Assembly: GCA_910589415.1 (NCBI GenBank) | Contig: OU342633.1 | Span: forward strand, 4,874,858 to 4,938,857 | Origin: Malachius bipustulatus | Lineage: Eukaryota > Arthropoda > Insecta > Coleoptera > Melyridae | DNA: 64,000 nt | Direction: 5' to 3' | In this document: positions 8,836-34,800 of the stretch, piece after piece | How positions within the stretch are numbered: the stretch's first letter is position 1 | Layout of the letters: every line of letters starts with the position of its first letter | Made by a program: the position numbers and the translations under genes | Notes under the pieces: generated by a model | The model's input: the letters and a program-made list of their open reading frames with translations, nothing else | Database searches by the model: none | Told to the model about the DNA's origin: nothing

Positions 8836-9379
8836 TGTGAGTCAACAACACTCGAGTTCGAATATAAAGGGACCCTGCTGGTAGCTGGGAGAACCGCTTT
8901 TACTTTCTTTGAGGCAATGTGCGGCGTTGCCGTTTGTACTAGACGTTAGAATAGTCGTAGCTTACTTAGGCTCGTTTAGCGCTTTTGGTTTTACTCAAGA
9001 TATGCTTCATTTATTTGTAAACCAGGTTTGCAAGACCTGTTTTACCTTCATTGTTTATTCGCAGATATACTCTGAATTTGCATTGTTCGGGTGTAGCTTC
9101 TGAAGCAAGTAATATTTAATTTCCTTCCAGCCATATTCAGGTATGTTATAGTCCTCGGACTAGAAGTTTGGTTTTCTGGATTTACTCTGAACTTGTATTC
9201 TCGGGCGTAGCTTTTTTTTTTTTTTTTTTGAAAAAGGAGGGTAAATCCATTATGGATACCCATGCATTGGGTTATGTGGGAGTCCCACCCACTAAAACCC
9301 CCTCCTTTCGAGGGCCGTCTGATTCTTGGTCACCGGAAGCACCTCAGCCTCATGGGCTTATTGTGCACCCCCTTTTGCT

Positions 9380-12300
9380 TCATGACACCCATTCCATCAG
9401 TCTGGTTCCCTGAACTAACTTGTGCAGCCCCGTTACTGAATGAGTTTCATATTCTTCCGGACGCATTTTTTGTTGTCCGTATATCTCCTGTCTTCTGCGG
9501 TCCAGAGCCTCGCATTCACACAGTACATGTTTTGCTGTCTCCTGGGCCCTATTGCATTCTCGGCAACTTAGGTCTCCATTGAACAGTCCTATTTTATTTA
9601 AGTGTTCTTTTAGGGCAATATGTCCCGTTAGTAATCCCACTGTAATGCGTAACTGATTCCTGCTAAGTAATAGTAGTTCTTCAGTTGTCTTTTTTATGGG
9701 TCCTTTGATAAAGGCTTTCCCATGTTGGTGTTTGGTCCTTTTGTCCCAATATATTTTGTGTTTTTCTTTGACCCATATATTAACCTGACCCCGTGCTGTA
9801 CTTTTTGGTACTCCCAGGGCAGGTTCTGGGCCAATGTATTTAGCCGAGGATCCTCTTCTTGCTAGCTCGTCGGCTTTTTCATTGCCTGTGATTCCTCTAT
9901 GTCCTGGTACCCACATCAAGGTTACCTTATTGCGTTCTGCCAGGGTTTCGAGATTCTCACTGCATTCCCACAGTAGTCTGGACGTTATCTTGGGGCTTTC
10001 TATAGCCCTCAGAACCGCCTGACTATCTGTTAATATATTGATCCGTCTATTTTTGTAGGCCCTCTTATTGTTTATGCTCGCGCAGTGTAACATAGCGTAT
10101 ATTTCCGATTGAAATACAGTTGCCCACTGCCCGAGAGATATGGTGTGTTGAGTATTGTCCAACTCATTGTATATGCCAGCTCCAGTTCCTTGGTCGGTCT
10201 TTGACCCGTCAATGTACCAGGTTGTTCCGACCAGCCTGTTGCTGTCTGTGGGCTCATTCCATTCCTCTCGATCTTTGATGCTCACCTCAAAGCTCTTGTG
10301 GAATTTGAATTTTGGAGCCATGTGGTCTGTGTTTGCATCTAGCAGGTCCACTTCCACATAGTTTTTGATTCTATTGTGTCCAAGTTCCGCATATTTGCCC
10401 CTTGGTTCTTCTTGCAGCCTTAGTCGTGCCAGTCTTGCCTCTCCCATTATCATTAGATGAAGTGGTGGGAGGTCTAGGAGGACTTCCATTGCTGCAGTTG
10501 AAGTAGTTTTCATTGCCCCAGTTATTCCAAGGCATGCGAGTCTTTGCACCTTGCTGAGCTTGTTTATCGCGGTATTTTGTTGCATCTTTGTCCACCATAC
10601 CAGAGATGCATACAACAACATTGGTCTAATCACTCTGGTGTACGCCCAGTATACCATATGTGGTTTTAATCCCCATGTTTTCCCATAAGTTCGTCTGACC
10701 ATCATGAATGTGGTCTCCGCTCTTTTAATCCTGTCTATCTGTTGGTTCCAGGTGAGTTTTGAGTCTAAGATTACCCCAAGATATTTCACCTCTCCCGATA
10801 TTTGTACGTTCCTGCCTCGAAGTTTTAGTGGTCCTAGGCCCACCAGTTTCCTTCGATTAGTAAACGCTATGATGGTTGATTTGGAGGGACTTATGTTCAG
10901 TCCCTCTTCGTTTGTCCATTTGGTTACAACATTTAGAGCCCTTTGCATACAGGGCCTTATTGTGTCGTTAAATTTACCTTGAATTAGTATGACAAGGTCA
11001 TCAGCATATCCTATGCTCTTGATTCCCTCTTGGTCCAGACGTTTCATTAGCTCGTCCATAACAAGGTTCCATATCAAGGGAGACAGTACGCCTCCTTGTG
11101 GACATCCCCTTGCTACCTGAGCCACCACAGTCTCCCCAAATAGGGATGTGCATACCAATCTGCTTTTCAACATGAAGTCTATCCACCTGCATATTGTTGC
11201 ATTGATTCCTCTGTTCCTCAGCATTGGAGATTGATTCTAGGGAGGTGTTGTCGAACGCACCTTCTATGTCCAAGAAAGCACATAATAGTACTTCCTTGTG
11301 TTTTATTGCGTATTCTGCCTTTTCTACCAGGTGGTGTAAAGCTGATTCCGTTGATTTTCCTGTTCTATATGCACGTTGGTCTTGATGAAATGGTCTGTTT
11401 GCCAGGACATCATCCCTTATATGCCTATCGAGCAGTTTTTCTAAAGTCTTCAGCAAAAAAGACATGAGACTTATGGGTCTTAGAGATTTTGCCCCTTCCT
11501 GTCCTGTTTTCCCAGGTTTAGGTATATAAATTACTCTAATTAAGGTCCAGGCTTTGGGTATGTGCCCCAGTGCAAGACTGCCCCTGAGGATCATACTTAG
11601 CCTCTGTGTCAGAAGATGTGGTCCTTTCTGCAACATTATTGGGTAGATGCCATCTATACCCGGCGATTTATAGGGTTCAAAGGAGTTGATTGCCCATTTG
11701 ATTTTGTTCTCGTTTATCACCGATTTCGCAACCTGCCAACTGTCCCTGTTCGTCCTCTTTGGGGTTCCCAGTTCTGCATTTAGGCAGTCTTGTGGAGATA
11801 AATCGGTGACTCTAGAACCTGGAAAATGGACTCTGAGTAATTCTCTCATTGTGTCCTTTCCCGTTTCCGTATATTTGCCACTCTCTGTTTTCAGAGTGTG
11901 TATGGAGCTCTGGGGTTGCTTTGAGAGTATTTTATGGAGTCTAGCATATTCTTGAGTTCCTTCTATGTCCTCACAATGCTTTCTCCATGAATCTCTCTTT
12001 GCTTTCCTCAGTGCTTTGTTGTATTCTGTGAGAGCCTTTCTGTATATCTCCCACTTATTTGTTTCCTTCGCTTTATTGAAGTATTTCCTAACTTGTCCTC
12101 TTTGTGCAGCTAGGTTTCTGTTCCACCAGGGCACATTCCTGTTGGAGTCCCTGCTGACAAGGGGACAGTTGTTGTTATAGGCCGAAGTGATTGCATCCTG
12201 CACTTGTCCTGCTACCACTTCTAGGTCTATTGTGTTTTTTATCGTATTTCTCGTCTGTTTTAAACCGTGCTCCAGGTCTGTCTTATAAGACTCCCAGTTA

Positions 12301-12430
12301 GTTTTCCGAGGGTTGCGATAAATTTCTTGTATGGTTTTGTTTCCATTTATTGTAAAGTTTATGTGTCTGTGATCCGAGCAACTAACCTCATCAGATACAT
12401 GCCAGTTTTTGACATAGCTTCCTACGTATG
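9380..12430 (-). pseudogene. LINE ORF2, reverse transcriptase and RNase H part
   Basis: Read on the - strand, the upper part (12430-11001) has the endonuclease end (VSDEVSCSDHRH), a linker, and RT motifs SPGIDGIYPIMLQ and LRPISLMSFLLK, then LLCAFLDIEGAFDN. A one-base frameshift near 11225 moves into the second frame (11224-9380). That frame carries RGCPQGGVLSPLIWNLVMD, the catalytic GYADDLVIL, VKYLGVILD and LLYASLVWW. The RNase H domain follows, with WYIDGSKT (Asp), FQSEIYAM (Glu), LTDSQAVL (Asp) and WVPGHRGITGNEKADELA. A final zinc-finger-like CRECN..ETAKHVLCEC precedes the stop at 9380. All catalytic residues are present, so apart from the frameshift it looks young. Confidence 0.88.
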
Positions 12431-12614
12431 TGATAAATTTTGAGGGTAAAATCGGTAGAATTAATAAAAATAACCATGTCAGTTGAAAACGTCTGCATAC
12501 AACATTTTATTCGATAATAATAATAATACACGTCATATTATATCATGCGCCTACGCATGTTGACAGCTTACGATGTTGCCGCATAGTGGTTTAATTCCTT
12601 GAGATATTTCAACA
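12431..12614 (-). repeat. copia 3' LTR (184 bp)
   Basis: This matches 22649-22858 base for base except that the other copy has an extra 26-bp block (TTATCTAGTGTATTTGATAA and neighbours). The ends are TGATAAATT and TTTCAACA. The target duplication GTATG precedes it. Confidence 0.9.
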
Positions 12615-12724
12615 CCCCCACTATCTCCAGCAATTAAACTACCAACAATCTTAATTTAAACCTAACTGTTTTACAAAATAAGAATGTTTAACCTCTGGTA
12701 GACTTTTAGTCAATACATCTGCCA

Positions 12725-13115
12725 TCATTTCATCAGTCTGTTGATATTTTTAATACTTATCAAATTTTTCAAAACACAATCCCTGATAAAATGATACCTT
12801 ACATCGATGTGTTTGGTACGGTTATGGAATACTGGATTTGCTGCCAGCTTCTGAGCACTTTGACTGTCGTTAAACAAAACAACACTACCTTTAAAATCAA
12901 TTAACTCAGTCAAAATACCCTTCAGGTAAATAGCCTCTTTTGAAGCTTCACTTAGACCTATATATTCAGCTTCAGTGCTACTCATTGCTACGGTCCTTTG
13001 CTTATTACTCTGCCAAGAAATAGGACCTCCTGCTAATTTAAAAACATATCCTGTATATGATTTTCGATCTTGGTCATTCGCCCAATCAGAATCTACAAAC
13101 CCTTCTAAAACACCT
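12725..13115 (-). pseudogene. copia RNase H, C-terminal part
   Basis: The frame contains the copia RNase H block SSTEAEYIGLSEASKEAIYL, then VVLFNDSQSAQKLA, HNRTKHIDVRYHFIRD and the end of the polyprotein. Just upstream on the - strand (13115-12986) the frame gives EGFVDSDWANDQDRKSYTGY. It continues from the part at 17619-17866 on the other side of the Gag-only LTR element, after removal of that insertion and one ACCT copy. Confidence 0.85.
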
Positions 13116-14531
13116 TGTAACGTCCTTTTTTTTTAAGGAATGTTACTTTTATTTGCATTCAGACAGTTGGGAGGACAGACACATACATGAAAATAATCAC
13201 AACAATGTGCTAAAAAGAAATCAATTTATTTATTTAAATTAATAAATTAAAACATCGTGAACCGATTATATATTCTTGGTTTTCCGGCTGGCGTCGAGTT
13301 CACCTATCGCAAGGGGTGTCTAGGTCAAGGTCATCGCTCAAGCTGGTCGCCTGATGCCGTCAGATTGCTACAAAAACACACAAAAATACAAGATTAAATG
13401 CACCTACCCGTGGAGCGACTGCAGCACGGGAGCGAGAGAGATATAATAACACCTCGGTTGGTGTCTATATTCAGATAAGGGTTTTTACCAACAGAAGATT
13501 TCTCGATGCCGTGATTCTTGAATAAAAACTGGTATTTTATCAAGGCGGCAATAATTTGAAAATGAAATAAAAATGAGTTTGATTTTATTTTGTGGTAAAT
13601 TTAATATAATAATTTCTGATTGAAATAGTAACGCTCTCTGGCGTTTTAATGACTTGAAATTTATTATTTTTATTAAAAATGAAATTATTTACAAATCGAA
13701 TAAACTACATGGGAATAAAATCTCTGCTACCGCATAATTGATCAACTTTCAATTATAGGATATACAGAAGATTAAATTTACGTCTAGCCGACTAGATCTT
13801 CCATGTGCAACTTACGTAGAAGATCTCGATCGGTGACTTGGCGCTAGAGCAACATTCTAGCGTCTAGGGAAAAGAATTGACACCGCTCCGGAACAATTAA
13901 ATCAGGGCAGGGCAACATGCTACCACTGATTTGCGTTCGATAGCCCGGAGGGCGCGCTCTGGTGAGCCACCTGGAGGAAGGTCAACTTCCTAGCTCCAGC
14001 GTGAACTTGGATGAATTTCGCGCAACGTGCGAGATTCGGGATTGGATTAAAAGTACATAAGTGGAGGAGCAACTTTCCAACACTTCGTTCCTTTTGGAGG
14101 ATTCGGAGAGCTAGCAGAATATCGAAGGTCAACTTCCTAAGACGTCTGTATTCGCTCTCCTCGATTCATTCTTCGTCCGCTGCTTATATAGCCGGTTTTC
14201 GCGTAAACAACGCCGTGTTATCGGGCGCGTCCCTTTTTTGCCTGTTGCTTCTTCATGACAACAACAACATTCCTTTATTTAATTTGAAATATTACAAATT
14301 TTACCAGTGACGCTAGTTTCCGACCGTAAACAACGCCGTCTTATCTCTTCAGTTGGCTTGGCTTCGGTTTCTTATCGGTTACTACCGTCCTTTTGAATAT
14401 TAATATGAAACATTTTATAAAATATAAAAGAATCGAATTTTGTATTTAAAAATTAAAAATTAATTTATTATTTATTAAATTAATTGTATAATTCGACGTT
14501 GCGGCGTCGTGACGCTCGACGTAACGTCACA
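13116..14531 (-). repeat. 3' LTR of the Gag-only element (1416 bp)
   Basis: Near-identical to 16203-17618. It contains a TATA-like box on the - strand (complement of TATATAGCC at about 14185), with AT-rich sequence towards the inner end. Confidence 0.9.
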
Positions 14532-14669
14532 CCCCGCTGACCTTATGAAAAAAAAATTTACTGCTAGGGAGATTTTTTTCTGTGTTAAAAGTATAGGAAC
14601 CTTCTAAATATGGTGAGTGGCAAACTCACGAACAGGGTTCCACTCTTAAGGTGAATTTTTCTTACTTGA

Positions 14670-16103
14670 TTACGGTGGCTCCCAATTTCGTTTTCTTATG
14701 TCGTAATCTGGCCTATGTTTCTGGAATTCTAGTCGGGTGGCTTTCCCTTTTTCGCTGAAATCTAAGCGTAGTCCATGTTCTGTCATGAACTTTGTCCCGA
14801 GGATAGCGTCGACTGGGAGTCCCGGCAGTATTGCGAAAGTAACTTCTGCTTTTATGCCGCTTATTTCGCACGGTATATTGCATTTCTCTTTTATTTCGGA
14901 ATGCGAATTGTTAGCCATTTCCACTGTTTCGTGGCATTTGAATATTGCTTCTGGCCATTTTGCGGCCATGTCTGGGTTTATGTAGTTTTGGATACTACCT
15001 GTGTCCAGTAATGCTTCAAATGCCACGTTCTTTGTTTTGACTAGGATAAAAATGCGCTCGTCCGACCTTTGATTTTTGCTTTCTGTTGCGGTTAGTATTT
15101 GTCGAGGAGGGGTGTCTTTGGGGCCAGCTTGTCCTGGTTGTCTGTTGGGAAATCGTTCTTCTTTCGACCTTGCGATTTCTCCTTGTATGCTGTCGTAGTC
15201 TTGCATCAGTTGCCTGAGTGTGGACAGTGAATCGAAATCGCTTCGTCTAATGTAGAATTTATACTTTGGCAACATATTTTTGTATACCATTTCGACGGTT
15301 TGTATTTCGTTCAGGCGTCCCTCTCTGCGTATCAGGGTCTGAATATCGTTTATGTACGACCCTGGTGCTTTATTGAATCGTTGCTTGCGGCTTCTGATGG
15401 CTTCTTCGAGCATTTCCTCGTATTTAGATGGAAAGAAGTCCATTTTAAAAATATCTTTAAATTCTTCCCACGAACTCCATCTGGTGACATTATTTCTATG
15501 CCATGCCAATGCGTCGTTGCGTAGGCATATCGGTAGAGCTTGTCTCAGATGCTCTTGTGGGATATTGAAAGTTTCCATTAGCTCCTCCATACGTTCTATA
15601 AACGCTGGTGCTTCAGAGGGTCGTCCCCCAAAATACACATTTCCTTTTTGGATTATATTTAGGGAGTCTAATGGATACGAGTGCCTGTTTTGCGGCTGCT
15701 CCGGTGTTGGTTGGCCGGAATCGTTTGACTGTATTGGGTTGGACCTAGGGGGTTGGTTTTCCGCCGGGTCATTTATTAAGTTTTCTGTTGTTGATATTCT
15801 TTGTTGTAAAATTTTGATAGCTTCGTAGGCGTCTCTTAACTGTTGCCTCAACCTGTCGTTTTCTTGCGATTGAGGTGGTTCGTTGCTTTCTGCTGGTTTT
15901 GTTTTGGGTAGGGCTCCTTGACGGGTCCCTAACGATACCAGTGCAAAATGTCCTCGAAGTCGGGCTCTTATTTCGTCCAACTTCCCGGAACTGTCGAGAC
16001 CCAATTTGGTAGCCTCGATAACAGCTTGCTCTTTTGTGAGCTGCTGGATCCACGCACTTGTTGTGACTTTCTGTGTCTCACCCTCACTGTCTGAATTATG
16101 CAT
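14670..16103 (-). CDS. Gag-protease protein of the non-autonomous LTR element
   Basis: This uninterrupted 477-residue frame has a SAP-like N-terminus (LTKEQAVIEATKLGL, DEIRARL), a coiled-coil-like stretch at about residues 83-105, and a retrotransposon Gag core at about 150-300 (YFGGRPSEAPAFIERMEEL, LAWHRNN, WEEFKDIFKMDFFP, RREGRLNEIQTVEMVYKNML). A retropepsin domain follows with the active site ALLDTGSIQNYI at about residue 368 and the second hallmark VDAILGTKF near 440. The stop follows soon after, with no frameshift into Pol. No CCHC knuckle is visible. The intact frame suggests selection for a trans-mobilised particle protein. Confidence 0.85.
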   Translation of the reverse strand: MHNSDSEGETQKVTTSAWIQQLTKEQAVIEATKLGLDSSGKLDEIRARLRGHFALVSLGTRQGALPKTKPAESNEPPQSQENDRLRQQLRDAYEAIKILQQRISTTENLINDPAENQPPRSNPIQSNDSGQPTPEQPQNRHSYPLDSLNIIQKGNVYFGGRPSEAPAFIERMEELMETFNIPQEHLRQALPICLRNDALAWHRNNVTRWSSWEEFKDIFKMDFFPSKYEEMLEEAIRSRKQRFNKAPGSYINDIQTLIRREGRLNEIQTVEMVYKNMLPKYKFYIRRSDFDSLSTLRQLMQDYDSIQGEIARSKEERFPNRQPGQAGPKDTPPRQILTATESKNQRSDERIFILVKTKNVAFEALLDTGSIQNYINPDMAAKWPEAIFKCHETVEMANNSHSEIKEKCNIPCEISGIKAEVTFAILPGLPVDAILGTKFMTEHGLRLDFSEKGKATRLEFQKHRPDYDIRKRNWEPP

Positions 16104-16187
16104 AATTGTTTATTTAAATTCTGGTTTCTAATTCAAATATTCTTGGCTTCACTATAATATCAGTGATGCGCTATTTTAGGTTCGATA

Positions 16188-16200
16188 ACGTTGGGCGCCA
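16188..16200 (-). promoter_or_regulatory. primer-binding site of the Gag-only element (tRNA-Lys type)
   Basis: On the - strand, TGGCGCCCAACGT follows the LTR after a 2-base spacer. The first 13 bases agree with the primer sites of the gypsy element (38069-38086) and of the LTR at 55969. All fit the 3' end of tRNA-Lys(CTT) as I remember it. Confidence 0.65.
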
Positions 16201-16202
16201 AT

Positions 16203-17618
16203 TGTAACGTCCTTTTTTTTTAAGGAATGTTACTTTTATTTGCATTCAGACAGTTGGGAGGACAGACACATACATGAAAATAATCACAACAATGTGCTAA
16301 AAAGAAATCAATTTATTTATTTAAATTAATAAATTAAAACATCGTGAACCGATTATATATTCTTGGTTTTCCGGCTGGCGTCGAGTTCACCTATCGCAAG
16401 GGGTGTCTAGGTCAAGGTCATCGCTCAAGCTGGTCGCCTGATGCCGTCAGATTGCTACAAAAACACACAAAAATACAAGATTAAATGCACCTACCCGTGG
16501 AGCGACTGCAGCACGGGAGCGAGAGAGATATAATAACACCTCGGTTGGTGTCTATATTCAGATAAGGGTTTTTACCAACAGAAGATTTCTCGATGCCGTG
16601 ATTCTTGAATAAAAACTGGTATTTTATCAAGGCGGCAATAATTTGAAAATGAAATAAAAATGAGTTTGATTTTATTTTGTGGTAAATTTAATATAATAAT
16701 TTCTGATTGAAATAGTAACGCTCTCTGGCGTTTTAATGACTTGAAATTTATTATTTTTATTAAAAATGAAATTATTTACAAATCGAATAAACTACATGGG
16801 AATAAAATCTCTGCTACCGCATAATTGATCAACTTTCAATTATAGGATATACAGAAGATTAAATTTACGTCTAGCCGACTAGATCTTCCATGTGCAACTT
16901 ACGTAGAAGATCTCGATCGGTGACTTGGCGCTAGAGCAACATTCTAGCGTCTAGGGAAAAGAATTGACACCGCTCCGGAACAATTAAATCAGGGCAGGGC
17001 AACATGCTACCACTGATTTGCGTTCGATAGCCCGGAGGGCGCGCTCTGGTGAGCCACCTGGAGGAAGGTCAACTTCCTAGCTCCAGCGTGAACTTGGATG
17101 AATTTCGCGCAACGTGCGAGATTCGGGATTGGATTAAAAGTACATAAGTGGAGGAGCAACTTTCCAACACTTCATTCCTTTTGGAGGATTCGGAGAGCTA
17201 GCAGAATATCGAAGGTCAACTTCCTAAGACGTCTGTATTCGCTCTCCTCGATTCATTCTTCGTCCGCTGCTTATATAGCCGGTTTTCGCGTAAACAACGC
17301 CGTGTTATCGGGCGCGTCCCTTTTTTGCCTGTTGCTTCTTCATGACAACAACAACATTCCTTTATTTAATTTGAAATATTACAAATTTTACCAGTGACGC
17401 TAGTTTCCGACCGTAAACAACGCCGTCTTATCTCTTCAGTTGGCTTGGCTTCGGTTTCTTATCGGTTACTACCGTCCTTTTGAATATTAATATGAAACAT
17501 TTTATAAAATATAAAAGAATCGAATTTTGTATTTAAAAATTAAAAATTAATTTATTATTTATTAAATTAATTGTATAATTCGACGTTGCGGCGTCGTGAC
17601 GCTCGACGTAACGTCACA
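16203..17618 (-). repeat. 5' LTR of the Gag-only element (1416 bp)
   Basis: The promoter-bearing LTR for this orientation. The probable TATA box lies near 17272 (TATATAGCC, complement). The upstream edge carries several ACGTC/GACGT motifs (17580-17618) that resemble CRE-type sites; that role is inference. Confidence 0.85.
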
Positions 17619-17866
17619 ACCTCCATCCTTAGAATATTTCAATTTGTAATTCTTTGTACTTTTTAAATACCTGAGGACTCTCTTTGCACATTTCCAATGA
17701 TATTCTGAATGATTGTTATTATACTGACTTAAATAGCTAACAGAAAAAGCTATATCTGGTCGGGTTAACACAGCCAAGTACATTAAACTTCCAATTAACT
17801 TTTGGTAAGGTACAACTCTGTTGTCATTATTTGAATCTACTGACTTTTCTGAACAAGCTTTGCTCT
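17619..17866 (-). pseudogene. copia RT/RNase H connecting part
   Basis: On the - strand this gives SNNDNRVVPYQKLIGSLMYL, then TRPDIAFSVSYLSQ and HWKCAKRVLRYLKSTKNY. This is the standard copia block between reverse transcriptase and RNase H. It lies between the ORF1-only LINE and the Gag-only LTR element and joins the flanking copia parts on both sides. Confidence 0.85.
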
Positions 17867-17878
17867 CCATAGGAGTAT

Positions 17879-19319
17879 AGAATAGAATAGAATAGAATTT
17901 ATTGTATTTTAAACCTATCGGTTTGTTACAATGGTTGACAGGTTATAAGTTATAAATCTAAATATTGTAGTTAGGTATGTATCTCAACTATAATGCATGA
18001 AAGAAAAAACTAACTAACCAACACACAATCACACCCACTAAAGTACCCCACTCAAACAAAGTACCCACAAAATCCATATTATACAATGTACCGCATACCC
18101 ATCCCTTGATCTGACTGTAAAAACTAACAGGAAAAAACAATCATAACGAGCTACTAATCATAATATAGTTAACAATCATAATCAAGGATGTGACTCTATT
18201 TTTACAAAAGTATAGTATCAGGTCATCTTCATAGTTGTAGGCACCCTGTCAGTCTGTCAAGGACGATGTAAAGTTAGTTAAACCCTGGCAATTCCACGAC
18301 ACTACCCTAATGTTTTTCAAATTCAGTTTTTTGGAGTTTGACTGCAATTACTTTGAACTATGTTCCTCCAATTTTTCACTTTCTTCTTTTCTTGAACTAT
18401 CTTTTCCGGGGTTGCTTCAGAATCCTCTGATGACTGTGGTTTGTTACGTTTTCGGTTTCTTCCGGTAAGTAGAAGCCGTTTCTTTTTGTTCTCAATTCTG
18501 TATTTCAGTGGCAAGTCTTCATTAATAAATATGTGCGTATTCTTTAATTTGCGTCTATTATTAAAGATGTGAGTTTTTAGGCGATAATCGTGGAGACATA
18601 CCTTTACTGGTCTTTGCCGGTCATCTGCTTTCTGCCCAATTCTATAAATGGCTCTTACGCCAGATTCTGTACATTCGATATTCAGCTTCTGGCCCACAGT
18701 ATCTATGAAAAATTTCAAAATTTCTTCGTCTTCCGGAATCCCAAATACTATGAGATTGTTCTTGTTTACTTCCTTTTGCAGAAAATCTATTGTGGATTGT
18801 TGCCTTTGCACCATTATGTTCAGGTCGTTATACTTCTGTTCGTTATTTAAACAAATTTCTTTTATTTGCATTATCTCGGTATTCGTTGATTGTAGATTAC
18901 TTTTGAGATTTATTTCTACTTCATTTAGACGCTGCAAAATATGATCTAATTTCTTCTCCATGATTTTTGATTAATGATTTATTGTCTACGCAATAAATAC
19001 ACATTCACTTTATTGGTTTTATTTTAATCGTAAATTCTATACAACTCGGCAACGTCGATGTGGTGGTTTAGCTGTAGCCTGGACTTATCATACTTTGATA
19101 ACAATTTTCGTCTTTTACGCCAAATTCTGATCTGCTTATTTCCGCGTATTAGTAATGAAATTTCCAATTATTACTTACATAAATTCACTCATAAATACTT
19201 TCACTAACTATTGTGCGCGAAAACAATATTTCAAACTCTTATTTTTACAGGAATTTGGGCATAATTTCAATCATCGACCAAAAAACACATCCATACATAC
19301 CGGTGCTACGTTGCCAACC
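17879..19319 (-). mobile_element. ORF1-only LINE (half-LINE) inserted in copia
   Basis: A 12-bp target duplication CCATAGGAGTAT lies at 17867-17878 and 19320-19331, so the insert is 1441 bp. Its 3' end is a short tandem tail (TTCTA)n, seen on the + strand as AGAATAGAATAG at 17879-17895. It carries only a coiled-coil/RNA-binding ORF1 (18961-18323), about 360 bp of 5' leader and about 440 bp of 3' UTR. There is no endonuclease or reverse transcriptase and no trace of one. This parallels the HAL1 elements of mammals, which are ORF1-only L1 derivatives. Confidence 0.8.
18323..18961 (-). CDS. LINE ORF1 protein, L1-type coiled coil plus RNA-binding fold
   Basis: This intact 212-residue frame has a coiled coil at about residues 3-70 (LDHILQRLNEVEINLKSNLQ, then IMVQRQQSTIDFLQKEVNK). 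An RRM-like core follows, opening NNLIVFGIPEDEE, with AIYRIGQKADDRQRPVKVCL and a C-terminal piece (THIFINEDLPLKYR) typical of transposase-22/L1 ORF1-like proteins. The tail is basic (GRNRKRNKPQ, EKKKVKNWRN). It would bind LINE RNA as a trimer in L1-like systems; that role is inferred from the family. The open frame in an element without its own enzymes is unusual. Confidence 0.78.
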   Translation of the reverse strand: MEKKLDHILQRLNEVEINLKSNLQSTNTEIMQIKEICLNNEQKYNDLNIMVQRQQSTIDFLQKEVNKNNLIVFGIPEDEEILKFFIDTVGQKLNIECTESGVRAIYRIGQKADDRQRPVKVCLHDYRLKTHIFNNRRKLKNTHIFINEDLPLKYRIENKKKRLLLTGRNRKRNKPQSSEDSEATPEKIVQEKKKVKNWRNIVQSNCSQTPKN

Positions 19320-19331
19320 CCATAGGAGTAT

Positions 19332-20709
19332 TCACATTTTTACAATCTTGCATACCAAAATTTGTCAAAATTTGATCAATGTAATTTTCCTGATCCAAAT
19401 AAATAACCTTATTTTTATAATCTCGAGTTATCTTAACACCTAAACACTGCTTTGCTTCACCCAAGTCTTTAACATTAAATTCTGAATTCAATTTTGTCTT
19501 CAAAAATTCAACACAATTAGAATCATTTGAAAAAACAAAAAAATCATCCACATACAATGCAACAATGGTTAACAAATCGTTATTCTTCTTAATAAACAAA
19601 CATGGTTCATATTTTGACTTATTATAACCTAACTTAGTCAAAACTTCATTAACCTTTATATTCCAAGCCCTAGACGATTGTTTTAATCCATATACTGCCT
19701 TTTTTAATTGGTATACCTTATCTTCATGACCTTCAACTATAAAACCTTCTGGTTGTCTCATATAAATTGTTTCTTCCAGCACACCATTTAAAAAAGCAGT
19801 TTTTACATCAAGATGCGTTATTTTCAGATCTAACTTTACTGCTAAAGCAATTAACAATCTCAAATTGGAATGCCTTACCACTGGTGCAAAAATATCATCG
19901 TAATCCACACCTTGCTTCTGGTTATACCCTTTTGCAACTAAACGTGCACGATATTTCACATCACCTGTTTCACATGTTTTTCTCTTGAACACCCATTTAC
20001 TTGACACTATTGTTGAAGAATCCATAGGCTTATCAGTCAACACCCAGGCTTTGTTGTCATTGAAAGATTGCACTTCCTCGCACATAGCTTGCCTCCACAT
20101 ATCAGCATCGTCCCTCGACATCGCCTCCTTCACAGTGACTGGATCATCTCTAAAACTGGACTCGTTCAAACAAGCATAAGTCACATAGTCTTCAAACAAT
20201 TTTGGTTTGACTACTCTCTGCGATTTTCTGATTTCTTCATGTCTTATTGGTGGTAATTCTTGATTAATTGTGAAATCTTCATCACTGTCTAAATCTGCTG
20301 ATTCGTAGTCTGTAGTTAAATTTTCATTCGAGGTTTCTGTGCTAGATTGGGTATCTATCTGATCTGCTGTAGACTGCTCGTCTAAATCAGCCCCCACTGA
20401 ATCTGCTGATTCTTTTATTTCGCACAAAATCTCTTCTGATTTTCTAATCGTTTCTTCGACAATCACGTCTCTGCTAATCATTACCTTTCTTCCAATAGGA
20501 TCATACAGCCTATATCCTTTTATGTTATCACTGAATCCAATCAGAAACATGTTCTTGGATTTTTTATCCCATTTTTGTCTCTTTTCTTTCGAAATATGTA
20601 CCATCACTTTACTTCCAAACACTCGTATACCACTCACATCTGGTTTCTTGCCAGTCCACATTTCATAAGGAGTTTTATCAATTCCTGATGCTTCTGAGCG
20701 ATTCCTCAA
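19332..20709 (-). pseudogene. copia reverse transcriptase region
   Basis: The frame starts with the integrase end (PYEMWTGKKPDVSGIRVFGS), runs through a low-complexity acidic linker, then the RT: SSKWVFKRK, YRARLVAKGYNQKQGVDY, FAPVV, HLDVKTAFLNGVLEETIYM, QPEGF, VYQLKKAVYGLKQSSRAWN and the catalytic ALYVDDFFVFS. It ends at VNTPMG where the ORF1-only LINE interrupts it. This part has no internal stop. It is separated from the integrase frame by a one-base frameshift near 20720. Confidence 0.88.
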
Positions 20710-20723
20710 ATAGACGGCTGTAC

Positions 20724-21380
20724 CTACGGCTTCTGCCCAGAGAACTTTTCAAAATTTGCTTCATAGAGCAAACAACGAGCTTTCTCCACCACAGTTCGAT
20801 TCATTCTCTCACTCATGCCGTTCTGCTGTGGAGTATATGCATTTGTTTGTTGATGCAAAATTCCATTTTTCTTATAATAATCTCTAAACTGATTACTGTC
20901 AAATTCACCACCTTGATCACTGCGAAAAATCTTGATTTTTGCTTCTTTCTGATTTTCCACATAGCTCTTGAACTCTTTGAACTTATCAAATGCTTCATCT
21001 TTACTCCTAAGAAAATATACAAAAGTCATTCTGGAATAATCATCTTCCAATATCATAAAGTATCTGGAACCACCGAGCGATGTAACTTCCATTGGTCCAC
21101 ATAGATCTCCATGGATAACCTCCAAAACTGCACTAGATCTATTTCCTTTATGATTAAAAGGCAATCTGGTCTGCTTCCCTTCACAACAAACTTCACACAA
21201 ACTGCTTCTGTTTAGAGTTCCTTGACATTCAAAACCTTCAACCAATCCGTTTTTCATCAAATTCAAATCTTTGTAATTTAAATGAGCGAAACGTCTATGC
21301 CAGACTTCTCCCGACACTGCCAATCCTGCTACCAAGTTTAACTGTGGCTTCTCAAAGTTTAATTTATAAACATTGTCCAC
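20724..21380 (-). pseudogene. copia integrase
   Basis: The zinc-binding HHCC block is HRRFAHLNYKDL plus CEVCCEGKQTRLPF. The catalytic triad follows as EVIHGDLCGPM, FRSDQGGEFDSNQF and QQNGMSERMNRTVVEKAR (Asp, Asp, Glu). A frameshift after NFEK cuts it off from the RT frame. A second frameshift near 21485 cuts it off from the protease. Confidence 0.88.
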
Positions 21381-21494
21381 TAAATTTGCTGTAGCAATCA
21401 GCTGACATTTACTGTTATATATATTACAGCCTTTCTCATGAAAAACAACGTTATTCTTGTTTTGAATTAGTCGACTCAGACAGGAGATTTGTTG

Positions 21495-21860
21495 TCAGTT
21501 TGGCACATAAAGAACATCTTTAACTGTGACAGAATGTTTCTCACTTCCAATCTTGTTTTTAACAATCGTTAAAATATCTATATCACCTGCTCCTTCTACT
21601 GCAACTTTATTTTTATTCGCCACTGTAATTTCTTTCATTTCAACTTCTCTGCGAACATTTTTCAGCCAATCTTTCCTTGCTGTCAAATGGATACTGCAAC
21701 CAGAATCAATGTACCAATCTGATTTGTTGAAATTTCCAGTTAAAAATACTGCACTAAATGCACTCGACGAATCTTCTTTGTTTCTATTGTTTTCAGGGCA
21801 TCTATTCATATAATGTCCGGCTTTTTTGCATTTGTAACAGATGATACCACTTTAATCTGT
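21495..21860 (-). pseudogene. copia zinc knuckle and protease
   Basis: A CCHC knuckle (CYKCKKAGHYMNRC) is encoded at about 21845-21800. The protease active site WYIDSGCSIHLTARKDW follows; DSG replaces DTG, as is usual in copia. The frame ends at a one-base deletion in the stretch that should read VPNLTTNLLS, at 21485-21500. Confidence 0.85.
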
Positions 21861-21976
21861 TTTCTGATCAACTTTGGAAAAATTCTTCTGATTAGTTTTT
21901 CCTTTAAACTTCGATGTCGAAACTTTGCTGGCAAACGCGCCTACTGACGTAGTCTCAGCTCCACCAATACTCATGT

Positions 21977-22492
21977 CTAATAACTTGACTTGATAGAATC
22001 TGCTGTTATTTCTATGCCCGCATGTTCGATAGCAATAACCATGGGTTCAAATTTTTCAGTTAAACCAGCAAGCATAAAATTGCCAATTAGCTCCTGACTC
22101 AACTTAAAACCACATCTATCCAGTTTCTGACAAGTATCAATAATCTGATTTACATAATATTCCATCGATTCACAGGTTTCAAGTCTCAGTGAAATTAATT
22201 TACGAAATAAACTAATTTTTCGTGCAAAACCTGTATCCTCATAGAGCTTTTTTAATCCATCCCAAATTTCTTTTGCGGATTTAAATTCCTTCACATGGAT
22301 AAACAATGAAGGATCCAACGTTAGTATCAACTTAGCTTTGGCTTTGCTCACTAAAACTGTATCTTCCTCTGAACCATCGACACACTTCGAAAGTCCCTCT
22401 AAGATAAATACATTTTCCACTGCAAATGCCCAATCTGCGTAGTTTTCTCTACCAACCAATTTCGGAATACTATTCAAATAATTGACAGCCAT
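21977..22492 (-). pseudogene. copia Gag
   Basis: The 171-residue frame starts MAVNYLNSIPKLVGRENYAD and shows the copia Gag (UBN2-like) pattern: WAFAVENVFI, AKEIWDGLKKLYED, LFRKLISLRLETCESMEYYV and LLAGL-like blocks ending in EPMVIAIEHAG. A frameshift near 22000 separates it from the rest of the polyprotein (MSIGGAETT). Confidence 0.85.
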
Positions 22493-22634
22493 TGTTGTAG
22501 CGGTTCAAACTTCAGACAAAGAACACTTTTCACCTTTTTTATTAATTCACCACTCTAGGTACTCTGTAGAAGAAACTGCAGTACCTGCACTGAGTATACT
22601 GATTATACTACCGTTAATTACTGGTAACTGTAAA

Positions 22635-22648
22635 CTGGGTCCAGAACC
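22635..22648 (-). promoter_or_regulatory. copia primer-binding site, complementary to an internal part of tRNA-iMet
   Basis: The 14 bases next to the 5' LTR read CTGGGTCCAGAACC on the + strand. The initiator tRNA-Met of animals has CTGGGCCCATAACC at its anticodon loop, so 12 of 14 bases agree. Copia is known to prime from a cut 5' half of this tRNA rather than from the 3' CCA end. The match rests on remembered tRNA sequence. Confidence 0.6.
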
Positions 22649-22858
22649 TGATAAATTTTGAGGGTAAAATCGGTAGAATTAATAAAAATAACCATGTCAG
22701 TTGAAAACGTCTGCATACAACATTTTATTCGATAATAATAATTATCTAGTGTATTTGATAATAATAATAATACACGTCATATTATATCATGCGCCTACGC
22801 ATGTTGACAGCTTACGATGTTGCCGCATAGTGGTTTAATTCCTTGAGATATTTCAACA
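22649..22858 (-). repeat. copia 5' LTR (210 bp)
   Basis: This is the same sequence as 12431-12614 plus a 26-bp internal block near 22740-22766, probably an insertion or a local ATAATAATA slippage product. It is followed by GTATG, the target duplication. Confidence 0.9.
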
Positions 22859-23451
22859 GTATGGTGTAGCTATAGTTATGTCTATGACCTCCTTTCGTCT
22901 TGAGTTGACAAAAGTAGGTTTATTTCCTACATTTAATATGTCTAGATTGTTAGTCATTATAAATTGTAGTAGTGACTCACCTCTTTCGTTGGTGTTTGTG
23001 CTTCCCCAAGTTGTATGGTGCGCGTTGGTGTCGCACCCGATGATCAGCTGTGGTCCTTTTCCCCCGCAGTCTCTCACCAGTTTTTCTACCTCTTTGGGTG
23101 GTGGTAGTTCCAGGGCGTCATATGGAAAATATGCTGATCCGAGAATTATCTCCCTCGACATATTCCCGCTGACTGTCCTGATTTTTGCTACCGTCAAATC
23201 CCTAGAAGAAAGGTTAGTTAACGGAAGTATTTTAAGTCCTTTTTTGACTAGTATGCAGGTTCTAGGGGTTTCATGGGATTTACTGTAAATTAGTTCTCCC
23301 ACCCCCCCTAGTCCCATATTACCTTACCTTTGTTGATCCAAGGTTCTTGTATGAGGGCCACATCAAATTCCCTCATTGCCACAGTAAGGGCAGCTGATGC
23401 CGCCTTACTGTGCTGGAGGTTCGCTTGAAGGACCCTGATTTTGCCCGCCAT
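22859..23451 (-). pseudogene. LINE ORF2, endonuclease domain
   Basis: ORF2 probably starts at the ATG complementary to 23449-23451 (MAGKIRVLQANLQHSKAA), overlapping the end of ORF1 by about 45 bp in another frame. Next come LIQEPWI (metal-binding Glu), a small frameshift near 23318 in a G-run, VGELIYS, the block IILGSAYFPYD, and GCDTNAHHTTWGS with the catalytic DxNAHH. The end DITIATPY is cut by the copia insertion and continues at 12430 (VGSYVKNWHVSDE). This is an apurinic-type (EEP) endonuclease as in R1 and jockey relatives. Confidence 0.85.
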
Positions 23452-24691
23452 CGAGTCCTTTCAACACTCGGAAAGTCACCCTTCCGAGGCTGTAGTACGC
23501 TCGAAACCGGGATCTCTCGAGGGTCTTGAATGACCCCTCGTCTATTGAAAAGGCCCGGATTACTCCCTCCTTCTCTTTTTTCTTGCTGAGTTGTAGCCAG
23601 CTACCCACGTTCAGACCTGGATTCTGCCTCTCTAAACGTGTCCTTACTGGCCCATCCTCTTCTTCTGGTCCCGGGATGTAGACTAGAACTCTCGGCCTCT
23701 TTGGTAGGTCCTTGGCCTCGACTGTTGTCAGGGCCATCCCTTCCCAAAGTCCGCCCAGTGTCCCAATCACCCCCACGAGCCAGGTTTTTGTTTGTTCGTT
23801 TGCGCAGTGCATCCATAGGACTCCTCCGCTAAACGATACTTTTTCGAATTGCCCATCCTCTTCTTCTGGTCCCGGGATGTAGACTAGAACTCTCGGCCTC
23901 TTTGGTAGGTCCTTGGCCTCGACTGTTGTCAGGGCCATCCCTTCCCAAAGTCCGCCCAGTGTCCCAATCACCCCCACGAGCCAGGTTTTTGTTTGTTCGT
24001 TTGCGCAGTGCATCCATAGGACTCCTCCGCTAAACGATACTTTTTCGAATTGCAATGGACTTTTGCTCCCCGAGGGTGTGCTGTCCATTGCTTCGACTAG
24101 TTTCTTCTGGATCAGTTCTGTCTTTCCCTGATCCAGAGTAAATTCAGGATGGCGTCTGTCTATCACCGCCATCCTTAGTCCAGACACTGCCTCGCTGTAG
24201 CTCCCTTTAGGTTTCGTTTCCGTTGCCTTGCTGGGTCCCTTGCCAGACAGTGTTTGACTATTATTACCCTTCGCTCTCTTTGGGGCTTGGGGTGGAGTTT
24301 TCGAGTCGTCCCGAGATCTTTTTCCACTCTTCGGTTTCTTCTCTTTTGTTGCTTTGCTGTTGGTTGGACGTTTTTCAGTCCATGTGCCAGCAGCAATTTT
24401 TTGTTCCTTTCGGAGTTTCCTTTTCTGGGCCCCCGAAAGTCTTTTTTCTTTTATTGTTGATATCTGCAGTCCTATGTTTCCAATCCCTGCAGATATTGTA
24501 TCAGCGGTCCCTGTTGTCCCCACTGATGATTCACTGCCATGATCAGATTTGTCATCCTCCATGGCAGTTCCTGGCGTTACATTGCCCTCCCCAGAATCCG
24601 AGGGGCAGCCTGGCACTAGGCCAGGGAGGGATTCTGAACCAGTGGTTCTACCCTGCTGGGGTACTTCTTCCTTTTGTTTCCGTTCCGCCAT
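23405..24691 (-). CDS. LINE ORF1 protein with duplicated 67-residue segment
   Basis: This open frame of 428 residues has a low-complexity acidic and basic N-terminus (LSGAQKRKLRKEQK, SGKRSRDDSKTPPQAPKRAK). A folded domain starts near residue 170 (SGLRMAVIDRRHPEFTLDQG) and resembles the insect ORF1 domain described as DUF4780. Within it, 67 residues (starting QFEKVSFSGGVLWMHCANEQ and ending GPEEEDG) occur twice in tandem, from an exact 201-bp DNA duplication at 23652-23852 and 23853-24053. The normal protein would have about 361 residues. No CCHC knuckles are seen at the C-terminus. Confidence 0.75.
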   Translation of the reverse strand: MAERKQKEEVPQQGRTTGSESLPGLVPGCPSDSGEGNVTPGTAMEDDKSDHGSESSVGTTGTADTISAGIGNIGLQISTIKEKRLSGAQKRKLRKEQKIAAGTWTEKRPTNSKATKEKKPKSGKRSRDDSKTPPQAPKRAKGNNSQTLSGKGPSKATETKPKGSYSEAVSGLRMAVIDRRHPEFTLDQGKTELIQKKLVEAMDSTPSGSKSPLQFEKVSFSGGVLWMHCANEQTKTWLVGVIGTLGGLWEGMALTTVEAKDLPKRPRVLVYIPGPEEEDGQFEKVSFSGGVLWMHCANEQTKTWLVGVIGTLGGLWEGMALTTVEAKDLPKRPRVLVYIPGPEEEDGPVRTRLERQNPGLNVGSWLQLSKKKEKEGVIRAFSIDEGSFKTLERSRFRAYYSLGRVTFRVLKGLDGGQNQGPSSEPPAQ

Positions 24692-24818
24692 TCTTCTTTC
24701 TTCGTGTGTTGTTTGGTTCGCGCCGTTTCCGGTACCTTACCCTGTCGGGAAAGGCCTTCCCCTATCCACCACCTGGGGACGCGCCCGATGGGGGTAACAC
24801 ACAAGCCCCACACGGGTT

Positions 24819-24840
24819 AATGATCCTTCCGCAGGTTCAT
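24819..24840 (-). other. 22 nt of 18S rRNA 3' end fused to the LINE 5' end
   Basis: On the - strand this reads TGAACCTGCGGAAG followed by GATCATTA, the last 22 bases of mature eukaryotic 18S rRNA. It directly precedes the LINE 5' end in the sense direction. It lies between the LINE (from 24817) and the target duplication at 24850, with 9 filler bases in between. Confidence 0.8.
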
Positions 24841-25598
24841 TCATTCTTTCGGGCGTAGCTTGGTTAGCAAGTAATGTTTTATTACCTCCCGGCAAGGTTC
24901 AGGTATGTGATAGTCCTGCGACTAGAAGTTTTGATTTATTAATGAAAAATTCCCTTTTAATGGGATATTTTTCATTCTGCGATATCGAACACATCTCTCG
25001 AGTGTTTTCGACATTATTAACAGAATCATGATCACCTCTGATCGAATTACAGACCCCATTCCTTTATTATTGCTCAGACGCAATAATTAGAGTGTTGGAA
25101 AATTGGGCTAACCTACTCATTTAATCAGTATATTCGGGCGTAGCTTCTGAAGCAGATGACCAACAGCATCTTTCAACTGTATTATAGAGAATTACCTATC
25201 AAACGGAATCGGGATAATCAAATCAGTTTAGTGATTATGTTTCTCGTTAATGCGTCGTTGTTTGTGATTTGCACTTTAAGAAAAGCCTGAGCGCTGCTAG
25301 GACCACTCTATCGTTTTATTTATGTGAGTTCGAGCTTTTCGCATCAAACTTTGGTTTCCACGCAATTTTCGTGAACTTGTGGTTTGCTTTGTCGATTTGG
25401 CAACATGGTTTCGCCCATCTACCTTTCAGGACACCTTACTACTTTTACTACTTCTATTATTGGCCTGGAATGTTTATTGCGAACTCGAGTCTCGTAGCTC
25501 CGTCAGAATACAAAGCTCCTTTATGGTTTGTTTACACTACAAAACAAGACTACTCAATTCAGGCACTACTGTTACTTTTTACATCTACTTGATTTACT

Positions 25599-30579: not shown

Positions 30580-31356
30580 TACAGTGTGGAAAAGCCAAAT
30601 GGAATAAATTCGATAATAAATCAATGGAGATGGGTGCCAAAAAACGCTCGGACACGTCGATTAGTATTTTTAGTTGCGCATTTTTTTCAATGAAAACTTT
30701 TTATACAGGGTGTGTCGTGTAACAGTGCTCAATACCAACTTTCTTCTTTCAAATCAAACACCCTGTATATTATTACATTTTCAGATTGCCTGAAAAAATG
30801 TAATAATAATGCTGTTTATAATTCAAATTTGTAACGAGTGATTTTTGAGTTATAAACAAATGAAAATCGCAATTTTTAATTTTCAAAACAGTGTGTACAC
30901 CGATAACGACTCAAGATGTCGGAAAACGGCTTACATGTCCCTATCTTAACTTTTCATTTAGAGCCCTATTAGGTAGTTTAAATTTTTATACAGGGTCATG
31001 AAAATTACCAGATTTTTAATCACCCTGTATAAAAATTTCATCCACACAATAGGGTACTACATGAAAAATTAGGATAGGGACATGTAAGCCGTTTTCCGAC
31101 ATCTTGAGCCGTTATCGGTGTACACTGTTTTGAAAATTAAAAATTGCGATTTTCATTTGTTTATAACTCAAAAATCACTCGTTACAAATTTGAATTATAA
31201 ACAGCATTATTATTACATTTTTTCAGGCAATCTGAAAATGTAATAATATACAGGGTGTTTGATTTGAAAGAAGAAAGTTGATATTGAGCACTGTTACACG
31301 ACACACCCTGTATAAAAAGTTTTCATTGAAAAAAATGCGCAACTAAAAATACTAAT

Positions 31357-31725
31357 TGTAGATAATATACCGTAAAGTGAGCTGGAATATTTCCCTCAAA
31401 TACCTACTGATGCTGCAAGTTTTACTATACCCGATGCGGGAGGTCCAACGACGTTGCTTGCAGAAGATTTTCACCCGGACCAGTACCTACCTACCGTTCA
31501 TGAGTAGTACAGTAGCCGAGCGTCGAGCAGGATCAGTTCCCTAACGCTAACGAAGTTCACCGGGACTGTGAAATGTCATAATCGACGAGCGAAGGACAAA
31601 TCATACCTAACGAATTATGTTTTGTTCTTATTATAATTAACGTGTATCATTACAATAAATTACTATTCAAACTAACGATTAACGGTTATAAATCTAACGA
31701 CATTTATTAACGACAATTATTTATA
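31357..31725 (+). repeat. BEL/Pao 5' LTR (369 bp)
   Basis: Identical by eye to 36415-36783. It starts TGTAGATAATATACCG and ends CAATTATTTATA, so it has TG...TA rather than TG...CA ends. Confidence 0.92.
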
Positions 31726-31738
31726 TGGTGCCGAAACC
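31726..31738 (+). promoter_or_regulatory. BEL/Pao primer-binding site
   Basis: TGGTGCCGAAACC directly follows the 5' LTR, with the TGG expected opposite a tRNA CCA end. I do not assign the tRNA. Confidence 0.65.
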
Positions 31739-31804
31739 AGGGACCTTTAGATCGGTCAAAACGAAGCGAATATCGTAAACGTGAGTGAAGCGCGAGTGAC
31801 GTGA

Positions 31805-34800
31805 GTGAAATCGGGCAAAATGGATACGGCTAATATCGCGTTAAGAAAAAACTACCGAACGCAATTAACGAAATTAGTGAACAGTGTTAACGATCCCGAG
31901 TCAACTTTAAACGAAGAAGATTTAACCATCACTATCGCACGGATTAAATCATTAAATAAAAGTTTGAAAGCCCTTAATGAAAAATTGATCCCAACGTTCA
32001 CCGCGGATCAAATTGAAGCTGAGTGTCAGAAAATTATGGAATACGAAGATGTTGCAGTTGAAACAGCATCCCGCATGGAATATCGTTTGCGAAAGATGTC
32101 GACAGTTACTGCAAATACGTTCAAAGATTTGAAAATTAACGATGTAAACGACGCCGACGTCCAAATTAACGCAGAGGGAGCTGAATCGAATCTTCGCAGT
32201 CTAAACGAAGGTATCAACGCCAACAACAGCAACATTCATTATCATAATCATCGCAGCAATATAACGGTGAGATTACCTAAACTTGATCTCATAAAATTTA
32301 ACGGCAATATCGAAGAATGGACATGTTTTTGGGAACAATTCAAGACAGCAATACATGATAATAACGAATTAGATGATATCGCTAAATTTACCTACTTGAA
32401 GTCATTATTAATTGATAAAGCTTCTATCACTATTGCTGGATTAACGAACAGTCAAGCTTCCTATAAAGATGCCATTACTATGTTGAAAAATGAATATGGA
32501 GATACCGAACGAATTATCAATTCTTATATTCAAAAACTCCTAGGAATATCAACAGTTAAATATGACGTATATTCTTTACGTAAATTATACAACACCGCAG
32601 CTACCGTAACGAAATCACTATCTACGCTAGGTGTTTCTACAGAGCAATACGGTCTTATTGTCAAGTCAATTATATTTAAAGCACTACCGTACAACATGAG
32701 AGTGGAATATAATAAAATGAAACGTAACGAACTGTTTAGTAACACAAAGTCAAGCAGTTCTTCTGTATGTAGCGATATTTCTAACTCTAATGTGGAACTT
32801 GACATAGCAATCAATAATTTATTGCAGTTTATCAAAATAGAGATAGACTCATTAGAAAGTGCTCAACGTGATAACGAAAGAGATAATCGAGACAAGCCGA
32901 CAACCTCGCATAACGCACAGAGGTATTCATGTAACGTACAAAATACGTCTCGTAATCGTAATAACTCTTTTACCGCTGCTGGTCTTTTGACAACAATAGA
33001 TCAATGCATATTTTGCAAGTCTCAAAGTCACATGTCACAAAAATGTAGCAATTCTGGAATTTCTCTTGAACAGAAAAAGGACATATTGAAGAAGAATAAT
33101 TGTTGCTATCGCTGTACTAAACGAAACCATAATTCCAAAAATTGCAGAAGTCAAATAAAATGTGAAACTTGCAACTATCGTCATTCAACGTCCATGTGTG
33201 ATCCAAGTTATAAACGAACAAATAATGTGAATTCAAATCTGGCAACAACGACTAGTTTATTTACTAAGAACCCGGAGAATATCGAACAAGTGTTTTTGCA
33301 AACAGCCAAGGCCTACATATCCACAACGTCTAATAATTCAACGGATGCTTTCGTGCGATTGATCATCGACGGAGGGTCACAATTATCGTATATTAAAGAA
33401 GACGTGTCACGAAGCCTTGGGTTGAAGATTCTGGGTAAACGGAAACTAGCAGTAATGCCATTCGGATGTGCACAGAAAAAGTTACCGAAATATTACAACA
33501 AGGTTGAGTTAAAGTTGAAGTCACAGTACAATAACGAATCGGTTCTCATAACTGCGATCGAAGTTCCAGAGATTTGTTATGATGCATTTCAGAGTCCCGA
33601 TATTAGTCACCCTCTTCTCAACACTTTAAATCTGGCTGATATTTCCATAACGGGCCAGGTGCAAACGCTGGGTGGTATTTCCTTACTTATAGGAGCGGAC
33701 AGCTACTGGAGAATCGTAACTGGTGAATTTGTTCGCATTACCGACGATTTGATAGCTCAAAATACGAAGCTGGGATGGACTCTACAAGGACCGAACCCTG
33801 ACTGCATTTCAACTAATGTAAACACGACTATCGTAACGACTTTACATGCTCAATTCTCCGATGAAGACAACGACCTGAAAATTAAACAATTCTGGGACTT
33901 GGAAACTATTGGAATTAACGACGATTTGAAACGAAATAATTTTACCGAACAATTTATTAATGAACAAATATTATTTAAAGGTGATCGATATGAAGTTTCG
34001 TTGCCTTGGAAAAACGAGTGCACATTAGATGATAATTATTATGGTGCATTATCGAGAATGAAGAATTTAACGAATAAACTTCACAAAAATTCTCGCTTAA
34101 TCGAATACGACGAAGCTGTTCGTGAACTCATAAATAACGAAATCGCCGAAGTAGTGGAGTCTTCTAGAAATTCAAAATCATCGCAGAAGACCTACTATAT
34201 GCCTCATCGTCCAGTTTATCGCGAAGACAAGACGACGTCAAAAATTCGCGTAGTGTTTGACGCCTCTGCTCACGCTCCAAATTTACCGTCACTTAACGAA
34301 CTTCTTCATGCCGGTGAAAATTTGGTACAAGATCTAATGAGAATTTTATTGAACTTTCGCGTCGGAAAAATTGGACTAATCGCCGATATCGAGAAGGCAT
34401 TTTTGCAAATAAAATTGAGTGTTCGCGATCGAGACTGTCATCGTTTTCTGTGGTACAAAGAACCTATTAACGACATAAATAATTTACCGACAGTTCTGAC
34501 GGATGTTACCTTACCGAAATTAGAACTTACCGCTGCATTTTGTGCTTCTCGCTTAAAAGACTATATTCTAAAGAATGTGAAATTGAAATTTACGAACATT
34601 AATTTGTGGACTGACTCAAAAATCACTTTGTATTGGATTACTGGTGATGCCGCGAAATGGAAATCGTACGTGTATAATCGGGTAAGTGAAATCCAAAAAT
34701 TAACGAACGACTCAATTTGGAGACACTGTCCGGGTAAATCGAATCCCGCGGATTTGTTAACGAGAGGTGTCAGTGCTGCTGAACTTTGTAAAGCTGAACA

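Follow-up and report, generated by a model that had tools for sequence, protein, structure and literature searches.

A LINE insertion in a beetle genome headed by the 3' end of 18S rRNA, a probable trace of a template jump

LINE-1 insertions joined to non-coding RNAs, among them U6, U3, 5S, tRNA and 28S rRNA, have been described as chimeras (PMC13174262). Bipartite and tripartite chimeric retrogenes are likewise known from Magnaporthe and mammals; ribosomal RNAs are among the transcripts involved, and template switching, double switches included, has been proposed for their origin (PMC2104539). The R2 reverse transcriptase (RT) jumps to the 3' ends of RNAs after one or two added bases; according to the same report, the added bases are required for the jump, which proceeds best when one or two of them match the acceptor 3' end (PMC8857657). 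In the 64,000-nucleotide stretch of Malachius bipustulatus DNA analysed here (the window), the 5' end of a LINE is joined to the last bases of 18S rRNA. This is very probably a single LINE insertion whose rRNA head was made by an RT template jump.

The insertion and its 5' junction

The window copy belongs to a young, dispersed LINE family. It is 5'-complete and lies in a local repeat, and its target site duplication (TSD) encloses the filler, the 18S end, a single A and the LINE (Table 1). On the minus strand, reading from 24861, the parts follow in exactly this order up to the LINE, which starts at 24816; the 18S stretch therefore has the orientation of the LINE and sits at its 5' end inside the TSD. 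A first-pass annotation of this DNA had described the last 22 bases of 18S rRNA as directly preceding the LINE, with 9 filler bases and a 13-bp target duplication around the unit. The 22 bases, the filler and both copies of the duplication were located, and the direct adjacency has to be amended, because one A intervenes.

Table 1. Features of the LINE insertion, in window coordinates
Feature	Position	Strand	Basis or remark
TSD, 5' copy, AAGCTACGCCCGA, 13 bp	24849..24861	-	sequence; empty-site alignment; sibling TSDs
Filler, AAGAATGAA, 9 bases	24840..24848	-	inside a 12-nt exact host ITS1 match, 24839-24850
18S rRNA 3' end, last 22 nt of the mature form, TGAACCTGCGGAAGGATCATTA	24818..24839	-	exact
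Single A between LINE 5' end and 18S end	24817	-	host ITS1 base 1, or added base
LINE 5' part: 5' end CCCGTGTGGGG, leader, ORF1, ORF2 start	22859..24816	-	
ORF1 with DUF4780	23405-24691	-	in LINE 5' part
ORF2 start, endonuclease homology	to 23317	-	in LINE 5' part
Perfect 201-bp tandem duplication inside ORF1	23650..24051	-	
Copia-type LTR element with further nested insertions	12431..22858	-	interrupts LINE at 22858/22859
LINE 3' part: RT (split over two frames), RNase H, 3' UTR, poly(A)	9214..12425	-	
TSD, 3' copy, AAGCTACGCCCGA	9201..9213	-	directly after the poly(A) run

The 22-mer is the sole match to the 18S end in the window at up to three mismatches, and none of 100 shuffles matched. 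The reading of these 22 bases as the exact 3' end of mature 18S rRNA is borne out by the host rDNA, where the end of the Rfam SSU model falls on the last A of the 22-mer in all ten loci. In the six contaminant rDNA loci, the eukaryotic SSU model ends (1831/1831) on the same A in four (L003-L006); the SSU match stops 545 bases before the 22-mer in L001, and L002 has no SSU match. The host ITS1 starts with ACGTTTTTCG, and the agreement between the window and the host rDNA extends over 23 nt, through 24817. Across the 544-Mb host genome (52 contigs), the 22-mer occurs exactly at 11 places, ten rDNA loci and the window LINE, as does a 16-mer of the 18S end; no exact piece of the 18S 3' end of at least 16 nt was found in the host genome outside the rDNA and the window, and no 18S was found in viral contigs. 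The assembly contains only ten 18S 3' ends (L075, L077-L085), eight of them between 1.19 and 1.77 Mb of contig C7, where both orientations occur, and one each on C3 and C6. An assembly or sequencing artefact might be considered here, since the junction was judged from the assembly. Against it, the TSD encloses the 18S stretch, the order of the parts is that of a real insertion, and exact copies of a given 22-mer are expected by chance in the window at only 7e-9; we regard such an artefact as extremely improbable.

The two TSD copies lie 15 kb apart because the Copia element with its nested insertions interrupts the LINE. The Copia insertion duplicated 5 bp, CATAC, at 22859-22863 and 12426-12430, and its LTRs are identical except for one 26-bp indel. 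The LINE tail consists of 18 A, and its final two bases may also be assigned to the 3' copy of the TSD. The 13-mer recurs at 25134-25146, and an overlapping 13-mer in a one-mismatch form lies at 9086-9098. The target is itself repetitive, and the 13-mer alone is therefore weaker proof of a TSD than usual. The joined empty site, however, can be aligned with the adjoining repeat unit straight through the junction, with a score of 129 against 109 when the filler and the 18S stretch are retained; this alignment and the 12-14-bp TSDs usual in the family support the 13-mer as the TSD. The target comprises a local degenerate repeat, 9086-9213 and 24848-25146, with 80% identity over 90 bp between both flanks, and this repeat bears the 13-mer AGCTACGCCCGAA or a near form of it several times. 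Considered as a diverged piece of TSD, the filler shows a similarity to the 3' flank that is not above chance, as 42% of random 9-mers equal it.

An endonuclease, an RT, a poly(A) tail and short TSDs, all features of APE-type LINEs, are present, as is an RNase H domain; by these features, the element is of APE type. The ORF1 relatives named in the protein search are from beetles (Diabrotica, Aromia and Callosobruchus), and viral and prokaryote contigs contained no DNA of relatives. Five relatives (P0002, P0009, P0010, P0169 and P0170) have in common a read-through peptide (F/P-HTRG) immediately before the ORF1 start, a hint that part of the leader is conserved. The pieces of the window copy are about 98-99.8% identical to 20 sibling copies, which makes the insertion young and decay an unlikely source of the filler. 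For 18 of these 20 siblings, the alignment splits at the boundary of the 201-bp duplication, as expected if they carry a single copy.

Further elements are seen in the window. An LTR retrotransposon with AGGT on both sides (13115-17621) is nested in the Copia element; its 1,420-bp LTRs (13115-14534 and 16202-17621) are 99.86% identical, and it has a gag/protease ORF. Another insertion in the Copia element (about 17880-19330) is flanked on each side by the repeat ATACTCCTATGG and has a simple tail of ATTCT type, and is therefore probably a truncated LINE; its 212-aa ORF (18323-18961) has no Pfam match. A Pao-type LTR element (31357-36783; DUF1759, Peptidase_A17 and DUF5641) has identical end repeats of 369 bp (31357-31725 and 36415-36783) and adjoins a 697-bp palindrome-like stretch (30660-31356). 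The only tRNA match in the window above the Rfam gathering score is at 62116-62187.

The 18S end among sibling copies

The first-pass annotation had offered two readings, a one-off jump or a family that inserts at the 18S/ITS border and carries the 18S end as its own 5' end, and had proposed a comparison of sibling 5' flanks. In that comparison, the 18S end was unique to the window copy among the 40 copies scored (the window and 39 others, from 899 first-look LINE candidates). The alignments of the 39 others all start between query positions 100 and 112 (24821-24809), most of them (31) at 104-105, and at most four bases of the 18S stretch, which occupies query positions 82-103, are aligned in any of them. 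The 22 bases are therefore absent from the 5' end of every other scored copy, and cannot be a constant part of full-length copies.

The 5' end of the siblings is exactly CCCGTGTGGGG in 35 of the 39 (L016-L054); one base of it is altered in L020 and L041, and L048 and L049, which have a common flank, differ over the first bases of the LINE. The base preceding the LINE is T in 17 siblings, C in nine, A in eight and G in five. The junction GGATCATTA-N0-4-CCCGTGTGGGG occurs once in the 544 Mb, in the window, with a pattern that would miss copies with altered first bases (4/39). The 300-base upstream flanks of the 39 siblings are mutually unrelated, except for L048/L049 and a partial match between L027 and L047. 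In a short-word BLAST against the host 18S (last 1522 bases), ITS1 and 5.8S, these flanks yielded nothing beyond words of 10-14 nt, the best of them in L031 (E 0.003), whereas the window copy matched over 23 nt (E=1e-8). No Rfam family was found at the gathering score in the 39 sibling stretches; this search is blind to short heads, as the window's own 22 nt are also invisible to it. Similarly, no translated 18S was seen at the N-termini of 204 proteins (84 ORF1 and 120/173 ORF2 relatives), a check that is uninformative because only two Aromia gene models (P0009 and P0199) extend far upstream of ORF1.

Twenty siblings taken with 6.6 kb each (L055-L074) were searched for TSDs, and 14 have one of 12-14 bp, for which the 13 bp of the window copy are typical. 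In ten of these 14, the TSD is flush with the LINE (CCCG), and the other four have 1, 2, 5 and 8 extra bases; the 32 extra bases of the window copy make it an outlier in the family. No TSD could be convincingly assigned to the remaining six siblings: L058 and L069, whose LINE 3' ends were located, show only chance matches of 8-10 bases, and in L061, L067, L070 and L073 the LINE 3' end was not found. The 8 extra bases of L074, CCTGTTTT, resemble part of its own TSD (CCTGTAATTT) and possibly reflect slippage on the target. In L031, a G/C-rich stretch before the LINE start resembles the LINE's own 5' end inverted (ccacacggggcg), perhaps the result of a fold-back event.

A family-wide 18S head, a promoter or a ribozyme left-over of an element targeting 18S/ITS1 would have precedents. 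R2 RNAs cleave within 28S, as far as 36 nt upstream, leaving rRNA at 5' junctions (PMC3774820), and can retain 9-36 nt of 28S; R8 of hydra targets 18S (PMC5035012). Against such a trait stand the 39 scored siblings, whose flanks are unrelated apart from the two pairs and contain no rRNA, the single occurrence of the junction, and the ten host 18S/ITS1 borders, none of which has a LINE at that point. A fixed rDNA insertion site is therefore not a feature of this LINE, and a family trait can hardly be entertained. No HDV-like fold with perfect stems was present in 241 nt (2/60 shuffles gave one; the scan had no positive control), nor was there an Rfam match to an HDV-like ribozyme, and a left-over of this kind is thus unsupported. 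The siblings lack the 18S end and mostly have flush TSDs, so the 18S head is a one-off rather than a family feature or a sign of rDNA targeting. For the copies examined (40 of 899 candidates scored), family-wide heading and rDNA targeting are ruled out, and the one-off jump that the first-pass annotation had offered is supported.

Possible course of the event

The proposed mechanism starts with target-primed reverse transcription. On reaching the 5' end of its own RNA, the LINE RT would perhaps add one nucleotide and then switch to the 3' terminus of an 18S rRNA molecule. It would continue for about 22 nt of 18S, to just beyond the two dimethylated adenosines of helix 45, and drop off. Joining of the cDNA end to the target would bring in 9 more bases, which either had no template or were taken from ITS1 in a second jump. 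A switch between the two RNAs at these ends explains the orientation of the 18S stretch, its exact terminus and the single A, although this A may be an added base or, equally, ITS1 base 1. Counted against the jump are the single event, the two possible origins of the extra A, the recurrence of the TSD 13-mer in the target repeat, and the scoring of 40 of 899 candidates.

The dimethylated adenosines (m6,2A) are A1850/A1851 in human and A1781/A1782 in yeast (PMC10464549, PMC6380343), and the pair causes RT drop-off (PMC10464549). Primer extension in bacteria and archaea agrees on this stop, and Haloferax showed some read-through (PMC7897474). The AA of TGAACC occupies positions 1781-1782 in the 18S of L004, which is 1800 nt long. 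Since the modification is conserved, the host 18S presumably carries it. The 18S stretch ends 2 nt past the conserved pair, which counts in favour of the jump. A complete block at the pair would leave 18 nt, and the match extends 4 nt more; consequently, one has to suppose either that the RT read through or that TGAA matches by chance (about 0.006 by composition).

The filler lies within GAAAGAATGAAT (24839-24850), a 12-nt exact sense match to the host ITS1 (L077, 2240-2251). With the 16-base region tested, a match of this length was reached by one of 400 shuffled ITS1 sequences; it was noticed post hoc, and its BLAST E-value is only 0.04. The same A/G-rich stretch of ITS1 also has a 13-nt match with the unrelated sibling flank L038. 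A second jump into ITS1 is a possible source of the filler. In an extended form, the RT would have jumped twice, with a ribosomal precursor as acceptor: first from the 5' end of the LINE RNA to the 3' terminus of 18S (possibly with ITS1 base 1) and, after a halt just past the m6,2A pair, into ITS1, with closure by a 2-nt GA microhomology to the target. This course is rather unlikely; if true, the genome would record an RNA modification as a reverse-transcription stop. Quite speculatively, the choice of acceptor could then reflect a 40S subunit on the LINE RNA leader, which would keep the 18S terminus close to the start of that RNA.

Two other routes to the junction were weighed. In an RNA-level fusion, a ligase would link 18S by its 3' end to the start of the LINE RNA and the RT would stop near the m6,2A pair, yielding the same product as a jump. 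NOB1 is expected to leave a 3'-OH on 18S, and the LINE RNA to carry a cap at its 5' end. These ends would be a poor pair for RtcB, and a fusion of this kind is very unlikely here, although ligation by RtcB is one proposed route to same-orientation LINE-1 chimeras (PMC13174262). Alternatively, a short 18S cDNA from a separate reaction, or one copied from an 18S 3' fragment, may have been captured at the 5' junction during end joining: filler is also present at sibling 5' junctions (4/14), and 22 nt could be an entire small rRNA fragment. Such a capture, however, has little probability, as it requires a separate priming event and leaves it to coincidence that the 18S 3' terminus and the LINE 5' end are both exact where they meet. 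We infer a jump rather than RNA ligation or the capture of ready-made cDNA.

That the 18S-headed insertion was a one-off event is well supported, and its link to RNA modification is testable. It offers natural evidence that an insect LINE RT can reach the 5' end of its RNA and continue from the 3' end of another RNA, the same reaction that is described in vitro for the R2 RT. The nearby 18S modification raises a question for a survey, namely whether the dimethylated adenosines mark the end of LINE/18S joins in genomes generally. The answer would tell whether mature, modified rRNA serves as the acceptor, and it would separate a jump from the capture of RNA fragments.

Comparison with known chimeras

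A search of open-licence papers yielded no published 18S/LINE chimera that we recognised. As in the LINE-1 chimeras with non-coding RNAs, an unrelated RNA is found at the LINE 5' end, one event is involved and a TSD surrounds the whole, and the orientation is that of most 28S cases among them (PMC13174262). In contrast to these chimeras, the LINE here is an insect element of another lineage and is not 5'-truncated, only the last 22 nt of the RNA are present, at its exact 3' terminus, and the RNA is 18S, which has 0 occurrences in the main text of that source (PMC13174262). Similarly to the chimeric retrogenes of Magnaporthe and mammals, the parts are joined directly in the same orientation, with one A between them, and short direct repeats lie outside; the arrangement described there, a full-length cellular RNA as 5' part and a 5'-truncated LINE as 3' part, is reversed here, where only 22-23 nt of 18S precede a LINE with the same 5' end as its siblings (PMC2104539).

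The jump of the Bombyx R2 RT onto the 3' terminus of an acceptor RNA, after one or two added bases, corresponds to the course proposed here, although the R2 reaction was observed in vitro with a LINE of another clade, whereas here the trace is genomic (PMC8857657). R2 5' junctions that carry rRNA also resemble this one, with about 13-36 nt of rRNA at the LINE 5' end; the rRNA of R2, however, comes from its own cotranscript at the rDNA target, and here it is foreign to both the site and the family (PMC3774820). In the broad definition of LINE/non-coding RNA chimeras, joint integration and TSDs around the whole chimera are the marks, and both are found here, with a target that is repetitive (PMC13174262). 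The window insertion fits the LINE/RNA chimeras in this broad sense, and is not an rDNA-specific element.
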